A DNA stretch of 64,000 nt, from NCBI RefSeq assembly GCF_900167455.1, contig NZ_FUWJ01000001.1, positions 868,001 to 932,000 of the forward strand. The letters are read 5' to 3'. This DNA is from Enhydrobacter aerosaccus. Lineage in GTDB: Bacteria; Pseudomonadota; Alphaproteobacteria; Reyranellales; Reyranellaceae. This document shows positions 25,621 to 29,245 of the stretch, one piece after another; the first letter of the stretch is position 1; each line of letters starts with the position of its first letter. Position numbers and translations under genes: made by a program. The notes under the pieces were generated by a model. It made no database searches, was not told where the DNA came from, and was given only the letters and a program-made list of their open reading frames with translations.

Positions 25621-25728
25621 CGCCTCGCGACCAACAACGCACATTGACGGCAGCCTGCCTCCCGCTTATAGGGGCGGCGGGCCACGCTCCCCCACCGGAG
25701 CGCAGCTCTTCTGTAAGGGAGAGGTTTG

Positions 25729-26962: not shown

Positions 26963-26981
26963 GATGAAGGAGGCATTTCAA

Positions 26982-28565
26982 ATGGCGAAGCCCAAAGTTC
27001 TCATCTCCGATGAGCTCAGCCCGCGTTCGATCGAGATCTTCTCCGAGCGCGGCTGCGACGTCGATTTCAAGCCGGGCCTGAAGCCGGCCGAACTGCGCGC
27101 GATCATCGGCCAGTATGAAGGCCTCGCCATCCGCTCGGCGACCAAGGTCACGGCGGAAGTGCTGGCGGAAGCGAAGAAGCTCAAGGTGGTGGGCCGCGCC
27201 GGCATCGGCGTCGACAACGTCGACATCAAGGCCGCGACCGCCCGTGGCGTCGTCGTGATGAACACGCCGTTCGGCAACGCCATCACCACGGCCGAGCATG
27301 CGATCGCGCTGATGTTCGCCGTCGCGCGCCAGATCCCCGAAGCCAATGCCAGCACGCAGGCCGGCAAGTGGGAGAAGAACCGCTTCATGGGCTCGGAGCT
27401 CAGCTTCAAGACGCTGGGCCTGATCGGCTGCGGCAATATCGGCTCGATCGTCGCCGACCGCGCGATCGGCCTGAAGATGCGCGTCCTGGCCTACGATCCG
27501 TTCCTGTCGGATCAGCGTGCTGCCGAACTCGGCGTCGAGAAAGCCACGCTCGACCAGGTGCTGGAGCGCGCCGACTTCATCACGGTCCACACGCCGCTCA
27601 CCGAGCAGACCAAGAACATCCTGAGCCGAGCCAACCTGATGAAGACCAAGAAGGGCGTGCGCATCGTCAATTGTGCCCGCGGCGGCCTGGTCGACGAGCT
27701 CGCCGTGCGCGATCTGCTGGTGTCCGGTCACATCGCCGGCGCTGGCTTCGACGTCTTCACCGTCGAACCGGCCAAGGAGAACGTGCTGTTCGGCACGCCC
27801 AACCTCGTCTGCACGCCGCATCTCGGCGCGTCGACGGTCGAGGCGCAGGAGAACGTGGCGCTACAGGTCGCCGAGCAGATGTCCGACTATCTGCTGACCG
27901 GTGCGGTCGTGAACTCACTCAACATGCCGAACGTGTCGGCCGAGGACGCGCCCAAGCTGGCGCCGTATCTCGACCTCGCCGAGAAGCTCGGCTCGTTTGC
28001 CGGCCAGCTCACCGACACCGATATCAAGGCGGTGTCGATCGAGTACGAGGGCCAGGTGGCGGCGCTCAACATCAAGCCGCTGAGCCAGGTCGCGCTGATG
28101 GGCGTGTTGCGGCCGCAGCTCGATACGGTGAACATGGTGAACGCGCCGGCCATCGCCCGCGAACGCGGCGTCGATGTCGCGGAAGTGAAGCACGAGCGTG
28201 ACAGCGACTACCACTCGCTGATCCGCCTGTCGGTGACGACGGAGAAGTACACGCGCTCGGTGACCGGCACGCTGTTCGGCGGCAAGCATCCGCGCATCGT
28301 CGAGATCAAGGGCATCGAGATCGAGGCCGAGTTCGGCCAGCACATGCTCTACATAACCAATGACGATAAGCCCGGCTTCATCGGCCGGCTGGGGTCGCTT
28401 CTGGGCGAGCACAAGGTCAATATCGCGACCTTCCATCTCGGCCGCGACACGCCGGGCGGCTCGGCGATCGCCCTGGTGCAGGTCGACCAGCCGATCTCGC
28501 CCGAGCTGCTGACCAAGATCGCGGCGCTCGAAAGCGTGGTGCAGGCCAAGGTGCTGACCTTCTGA
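26982..28565 (+). CDS. serA: D-3-phosphoglycerate dehydrogenase
   Basis: A 527-residue long-form SerA that oxidises 3-phosphoglycerate to 3-phosphohydroxypyruvate with NAD, the first step of serine synthesis. The catalytic core has GRAGIGVDNVDIKAATARG, the Rossmann motif GLIGCGNIGSIVADRA, NCARGGLVDELAV with the substrate Arg, and CTPHLGASTVEAQENVA with the catalytic His. An intervening domain and a C-terminal ACT domain (YITNDDKPGFIGRLGSLL) follow, the latter usually mediating serine feedback. GGAGG precedes the ATG at 26982. It is downstream of serC. Confidence 0.95.
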   Translation: MAKPKVLISDELSPRSIEIFSERGCDVDFKPGLKPAELRAIIGQYEGLAIRSATKVTAEVLAEAKKLKVVGRAGIGVDNVDIKAATARGVVVMNTPFGNAITTAEHAIALMFAVARQIPEANASTQAGKWEKNRFMGSELSFKTLGLIGCGNIGSIVADRAIGLKMRVLAYDPFLSDQRAAELGVEKATLDQVLERADFITVHTPLTEQTKNILSRANLMKTKKGVRIVNCARGGLVDELAVRDLLVSGHIAGAGFDVFTVEPAKENVLFGTPNLVCTPHLGASTVEAQENVALQVAEQMSDYLLTGAVVNSLNMPNVSAEDAPKLAPYLDLAEKLGSFAGQLTDTDIKAVSIEYEGQVAALNIKPLSQVALMGVLRPQLDTVNMVNAPAIARERGVDVAEVKHERDSDYHSLIRLSVTTEKYTRSVTGTLFGGKHPRIVEIKGIEIEAEFGQHMLYITNDDKPGFIGRLGSLLGEHKVNIATFHLGRDTPGGSAIALVQVDQPISPELLTKIAALESVVQAKVLTF

Positions 28566-28605: not shown

Positions 28606-28696
28606 CTTCGGGGGCTTCATGAGAAAACCTCTGTCGCGATACCCGGACAGCAGGAGGTACGCTCCTTCCTCTTGAAACAGGGAAGGAGCTGGCTGA

Positions 28697-29245
28697 GTGC
28701 CTCGAGTCACAGAAATCACCGATGACGGCGGCGATCCGACGCTGAAGTCGATCTTCGACAAGCAGCGCGAGATTTTTGGCGACCTGCTCAATCCAACGAA
28801 GGTGATGGCCCATTGCCCGCCGATCCTGCGGGCGGCCCAGCTCCTGGGACAGTCGATCGAACAGTCGGGACAGTTGCCGAAGGCATTATTGCCGCTGATC
28901 TACCTGCGCGTCGCGTCGATCAACGGCTGTCCATTTTGAATTGATATCAATTCCGTCCGTGTGACGGAAACCGAAGGCGGCCTGGACAAGGTCGCGGAAG
29001 TGCTGAGCTGGCGCGACAGCAAGCTGTTCAGCGAGTCCGAACGCGTGGCGCTCGAATATGCCGAGCGCATCACCTATAGCGACCAGCAGGTCGACGATGC
29101 CTTCTTCGCCAAGGTGAAGGAACACTTCACGGAACCGCAGATCGTCGAACTCACGGCGGCCGTGGCACTGGAGAACTTCCGCAGCAAGTTCAATCCAGCC
29201 CTGGGGATCGATGCTCAGGGCTTTTGCCTGGTGCCGAAGCGCTGA
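28697..29245 (+). CDS. Predicted selenoprotein: AhpD-like/CMD protein with CxxU motif (in-frame TGA at 28937-28939)
   Basis: One reading frame runs from GTG 28697 (AAGGAG eight bases upstream) to the stop at 29243-29245, interrupted only by TGA at 28937. Read through, it gives a 182-residue carboxymuconolactone decarboxylase/AhpD-like protein. Family-typical parts lie on both sides: AQLLGQSIEQSGQLPKAL and RVASINGCPF before the TGA, and SESERVALEYAERITYSDQQ plus VALENFRSKFNPALG after it. In relatives this site reads CxxC; here it is Cys78-Pro-Phe-TGA, so the TGA replaces the second redox Cys. A SECIS-like hairpin follows at 28951-28969. Function is probably a thiol/selenol peroxidase or disulfide reductase. 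The alternative is a nonsense mutation. Sec machinery is not in the window. Confidence 0.7.
28951..28969 (+). promoter_or_regulatory. Candidate bacterial SECIS hairpin
   Basis: TTCCGTC (28951-28957), loop CGTGT (28958-28962), GACGGAA (28963-28969) form a perfect seven-base-pair stem inside the coding sequence. The stem begins 11 nt after the TGA and the apical loop begins 18 nt after it. Bacterial SECIS elements recognised by SelB lie directly downstream of the UGA, with a small apical loop having a G in the first two positions; here the second loop base is G, followed by U. A further small palindrome, ATTGATATCAAT, sits between the TGA and this stem. Confidence 0.6.

Follow-up and report, generated by a model that had tools for sequence, protein, structure and literature searches.

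Selenoproteins of the CMD superfamily in which Sec stands second in a CxxU motif were reported in 2005 and 2008 from Sargasso Sea and GOS sequences, as AhpD-like 1 (COG2128/TIGR01926) and CMD-domain/AhpD-like 2 (PF02627), a metagenomic precedent to which the original prediction for the locus studied here had appealed and which is real (PMC1088965, PMC2398784). A 2026 review lists AhpD-like/CMD selenoproteins as well (PMC13188914). For the Sec-using alphaproteobacteria then sequenced, fdhA was the sole selenoprotein recorded in a 2006 survey (PMC1794560), and we found no report linking Reyranella to selenoproteins in the literature searched. We analyzed a 64,000-nt stretch of DNA (the window) from Enhydrobacter aerosaccus, whose closest relatives are Reyranella genomes and whose source assembly comprises 6.77 Mb and is 99.87% complete. 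The window contains an AhpD-like gene with an internal TGA, and comparison with its relatives indicates that the UGA at 28937 is very likely decoded as selenocysteine. The gene has the following features.

28697-29245, + strand: predicted selenoprotein gene of the AhpD-like/CMD-domain type, encoding 182 residues including Sec81 (from frame reading, Pfam match and orthologue alignment)
28681-28688, + strand: Shine-Dalgarno sequence GGAAGGAG, 8 nt ahead of the GTG (from sequence reading)
28928-28939, + strand: redox motif Cys78-Pro79-Phe80-Sec81, with C78, P79, F80 and position 81 invariant in the orthologue alignment
28937-28939, + strand: TGA codon predicted to be read as Sec (residue 81), TGA in orthologues and a Cys codon in Cys homologues

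A re-reading of the window confirms that one frame runs from GTG 28697 to TGA 29243-29245, encoding 182 residues, and that TGA 28937-28939 (residue 81) is its sole internal stop. The start codon site is common to 81 sequences (ATG in 76/81 and GTG in 5/81), and similar purine-rich sites precede most of the orthologues displayed. Once the TGA is read through, the Pfam CMD domain (PF02627) spans it at residues 45-123 (E 1.5e-8, 35 bits, cut-off 23). Purifying selection acts on both parts of the gene, with dN/dS values against nine relatives of 0.07-0.16 before the TGA and 0.14-0.23 after it. The claim that coding quality and family likeness continue on both sides of the TGA is thereby borne out. 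As had been anticipated for gene callers, the standard ORF list has two entries for the gene, 28697-28939 with 80 aa and 28961-29245 with 94 aa, and annotation without Sec models would divide it in the same way. These two mechanically found ORFs would also suit a true stop at the TGA, with the locus being either a pseudogene in decay or a pair of short, distinct genes. Such a stop is, however, extremely improbable, given that the TGA is kept down to 56% identity in all of the best 80 of 152 orthologues, that dN/dS stays low after the TGA with no other stop in the frame, that homologues have Cys at this codon, and that the SECIS element is conserved. The relatives are also free of general decay.

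At codon 81, TGA is found in 80/80 of the best 80 of 152 relatives in the genome collection (56-84% identity), in the context GCPF-TGA. These 80 sequences are a sample of the close clade, with records assigned to the Alpha-, Beta- and Gammaproteobacteria and to Rokubacteria; many are metagenome assemblies, and their names may be incorrect. Because these 80 orthologues, from independent assemblies, carry TGA, a sequencing error at the codon, a concern raised with the original prediction, can be regarded as excluded. One metagenome-contig orthologue (L065 1676-2173) lacks a stretch of about 16 residues immediately past the TGA, SECIS included, and could reflect a misassembly or a damaged copy of the gene. 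A family-wide survey shows a match in 69 of 75 Reyranellaceae genomes; 68 matches are full-length or nearly so with one TGA, the remaining one is a fragment (residues 121-182 only), and no full-length Cys version of the gene was found among the 75 genomes. The cultured relative Reyranella massiliensis also has an orthologue (L013). In other Reyranellaceae, a second AhpD-like gene (G312:C162:32536-33045 and G333:C152:8512-9000) is 35-36% identical with one TGA in each copy, and it is possibly a further selenoprotein subfamily. In the nearest Cys homologues (34-42% identity), position 81 is Cys in 21/21 cases, and the TGA does stand where the CxxC motif has its second Cys, as was proposed. In the tree, a single branch (support 91/82) separates the Sec proteins from the rest, with a Cys subfamily next to them.

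Downstream of the TGA, the RNA can form a hairpin with the following features.

28951-28969, + strand: predicted bacterial SECIS hairpin, with the 5' arm 28951-28957 (UUCCGUC), the loop 28958-28962 (CGUGU) and the 3' arm 28963-28969 (GACGGAA)
28959-28960, + strand: loop G-U at nt 20 and 21 after the UGA, G23/U24 by E. coli SECIS numbering

The stem has 7 bp and begins 11 nt past the TGA. The bSECIS rules prescribe a loop of 3-9 nt, a stem of 4-16 bp, a G in the first two loop positions, a distance of 16-37 nt from the UGA and an MFE <= -7.5 kcal/mol (PMC13188914). The hairpin of the window agrees with them, having a 5-nt loop that lies 18 nt after the UGA, a 7-bp stem, a G at loop position 2 and an energy of about -8.2 to -9.0 kcal/mol; when the hairpin is scored alone, 19/81 sequences miss the -7.5 kcal/mol rule. 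The RNA 28940-28972 folds at -9.0 kcal/mol with a z of -2.06, the hairpin by itself being only modestly stable, and a longer segment folds differently. In the stem of 67 orthologues, 97.0% of cells are paired, double-sided changes occur in 5/7 pairs, and 45 cells show a compensatory double change, compared with 8.2 in shuffles and <=7 in slid controls. The stem of 13 more distant sequences lies one base out of register and has its own covariation (A-U/C-G exchange). The loop G does not vary among the best 80 of 152 relatives (80/80); the next base is U in 75/80 of them, and the Arg codon of the loop is CGT in 73/80, compared with 18/146 Arg codons across six genes of the window. The loop bases described for the E. 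coli element are likewise G23 and U24 (PMC8659212); the bulged U17 of that element is absent, and C17 is found in 80/80 of the same best 80 of 152 relatives. The Cys homologues are mostly without such a stem, with 1-6 of 7 positions pairing. SelB, directed by the hairpin at 28951-28969, would place Sec at UGA 28937 and so create a Cys78-Pro-Phe-Sec81 redox center.

The genome was checked for the Sec machinery, and selA, selB, selD and tRNA-Sec are all present. The genes for selA (578 bits, cut-off 268), selB (457 bits, cut-off 242) and tRNA-Sec (anticodon UCA, 72.9 bits) form a single cluster, with selD (435 bits, cut-off 125) located elsewhere. Transposase-like ORFs, judged by eye from their translations, adjoin the cluster near a contig end (L090 12706-14213). 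In a survey of 289 genomes of the class, full-length selA is present in 5/5 TGA-form genomes versus 41/289 overall, an association that is not independent, four of the five genomes being from one family. The frame would be open under any code that gives TGA a sense meaning, and general TGA suppression or a TGA=Trp code could place a non-Sec residue at this codon. We consider this very improbable: TGA is the normal stop at the gene's own end and in 41/80 of the best 80 of 152 orthologues, the homologues carry Cys rather than Trp, and both the SECIS element and the Sec machinery are present. Insertion of Sec at the TGA, the central proposal of the original prediction, is supported by the orthologue TGA, the SECIS covariation and the machinery together, about as strongly as sequence data by themselves permit, and it withstood each of the refuting conditions set out with that prediction.

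At least three selenoprotein genes are predicted in the genome: the AhpD-like gene, fdhA and a SelW-like gene. The fdhA gene (TIGR01553, 1451 bits; L144, G000:C13:1093766-1096816, minus strand) has a single in-frame TGA, where Sec usually stands, in the context ARI-U-HGPTVASL, and its loop G-U likewise occupies nt 20-21 after the UGA. The SelW-like gene (Rdx, PF10262; L152 1498-1713, G000:C13 about 318405-318620) reads EYCGA-U-GYKPQA with a CxxU motif (CGAU). Its SECIS and that of the AhpD-like gene have the same loop, CGUGU, on unrelated stems. The pattern TGA-N17/20-C-CGTGTG occurs at 12 genomic sites. A 7-bp stem closes the loop only at the two sites in the AhpD-like gene and the SelW-like gene, the others reaching <=3 bp; the pattern was picked after both genes had been seen, and the result is supportive rather than independent. 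Two unrelated genes with a common SECIS loop in one genome offer a direct handle on SelB recognition in this lineage.

One further gene lies upstream.

26964-28565, + strand: serA (D-3-phosphoglycerate dehydrogenase), upstream of the AhpD-like gene and close to it in many Reyranella loci only

We considered and rejected an operon with serC-serA, or a functional link to the pair: in many Reyranella loci the pair lies close by, at distances that vary, and it is absent beside the gene in the beta- and gammaproteobacterial and Rokubacterial loci. Comparison of the orthologue loci revealed no neighbor conserved across the whole clade. A serC leader RNA (RF00517, 49.5 bits) lies at window 25675-25727, directly before the serC-serA pair.

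The AlphaFold model of the product is all-helical (pLDDT 82.6), and Foldseek matches it to Bmp8, PA0269, Atu0492 and AhpD-family structures. U81 aligns with Cys51 of PA0269 and, through it, corresponds to Cys133 of Mycobacterium tuberculosis AhpD (PMC3141380). AhpD-like peroxidases are recognized by a redox CxxC, a Glu 12 residues before the first Cys and a His 4 residues after the second (PMC3141380). The motif C78-P-F-U81 is invariant and corresponds to the CxxC with Sec counted as Cys, while the alignments place Pro66 at the Glu position and Asn85, invariant in the Sec clade, at the His position. With these residues in place of the relay Glu and His, classical AhpD-type peroxidase activity is uncertain. 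The position of Asn85 is Asn in 20/21 nearest Cys homologues; since these relatives have Asn there too, Asn85 is, judged from the alignment, a trait of the subfamily rather than an effect of Sec. On this ground, we discarded the view that the relay His of AhpD had become dispensable through Sec. Cys177, near the C terminus, is invariant in the Sec clade and present in 21/21 Cys relatives, and this conservation suggests that it may have a role in catalysis or regeneration.

Thiol/selenol oxidoreductase is the most likely activity of the product, and peroxide or disulfide reduction is probably its actual reaction. The selenol-dependent peroxidase or disulfide reductase named in the original prediction is a putative function. 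The Sec81 selenolate would attack a peroxide, a disulfide or a similar electrophile, Cys78 would resolve the oxidized Sec81 as an Se-S bond, and a thiol donor would re-reduce this bond; Cys177 may take part in the cycle. The selenol would be acidic enough to do without the Glu/His proton relay of AhpD. Alternatively, Sec could be inserted and serve a chemistry other than peroxide or disulfide reduction, such as reductive dehalogenation like that of the CMD-family tetrabromopyrrole debrominase Bmp8 (6ohi, 6ohj). Bmp8 is the best Foldseek match (173 columns, TM 0.77), it has a CxxC motif, and a reading of the alignment shows that it also has neither Glu at C-12 nor His at +4 of the motif. It was reportedly compared with the selenoenzyme thyroid deiodinase. 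Nevertheless, Bmp8 is only 24% identical at a TM of 0.77 and has Cys where the window protein has Sec; PA0269, a weak peroxidase (PMC3141380), fits about equally well; and no halogenated-compound genes are seen among the identified neighbors, leaving the window locus with no dehalogenation context. Dehalogenation by a Sec-containing product is therefore unlikely, and we hold in equally low regard the broader proposal of a Sec-only CMD subfamily with no AhpD relay, a Cys78/Sec81/Cys177 redox set and another reaction, for example Bmp8-like dehalogenation.

Among the structural matches, PA0269 of Pseudomonas aeruginosa has the same all-helical CMD fold with CxxC on a conserved helix pair (26-28% identity, rmsd 1.7-1.9 Å), and M. 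tuberculosis AhpD itself matches the window protein weakly in the structure search. PA0269 and AhpD have the relay Glu and His and a second Cys, whereas the window protein has Pro66, Asn85 and Sec at these positions, as well as extra N-terminal and C-terminal parts, the latter with Cys177. Among the family models, the nearest from NCBI, NCBIfam NF053654 ('GroundWater_YciW', YciW-related (seleno)protein), aligns with residues 1-175 of the window protein at 124 bits, far below its curated cut-off of 310 bits, and matches 43/43 orthologues tested (best E among these 5e-46). TIGR01926 (peroxidase-related enzyme, COG2128-like) scores 43.9 bits against a cut-off of 81.8. Because its score lies far below the NF053654 cut-off, the clade of the window protein is a separate, unnamed subfamily beside NF053654. 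With it, the Reyranellaceae gain a well-supported, near-universal predicted selenoprotein, and the picture of alphaproteobacterial selenoproteins becomes richer than that of the 2006 survey. Relative to the described systems, it is a new subfamily within a known kind, the AhpD-like/CMD CxxU selenoproteins reported since 2005.
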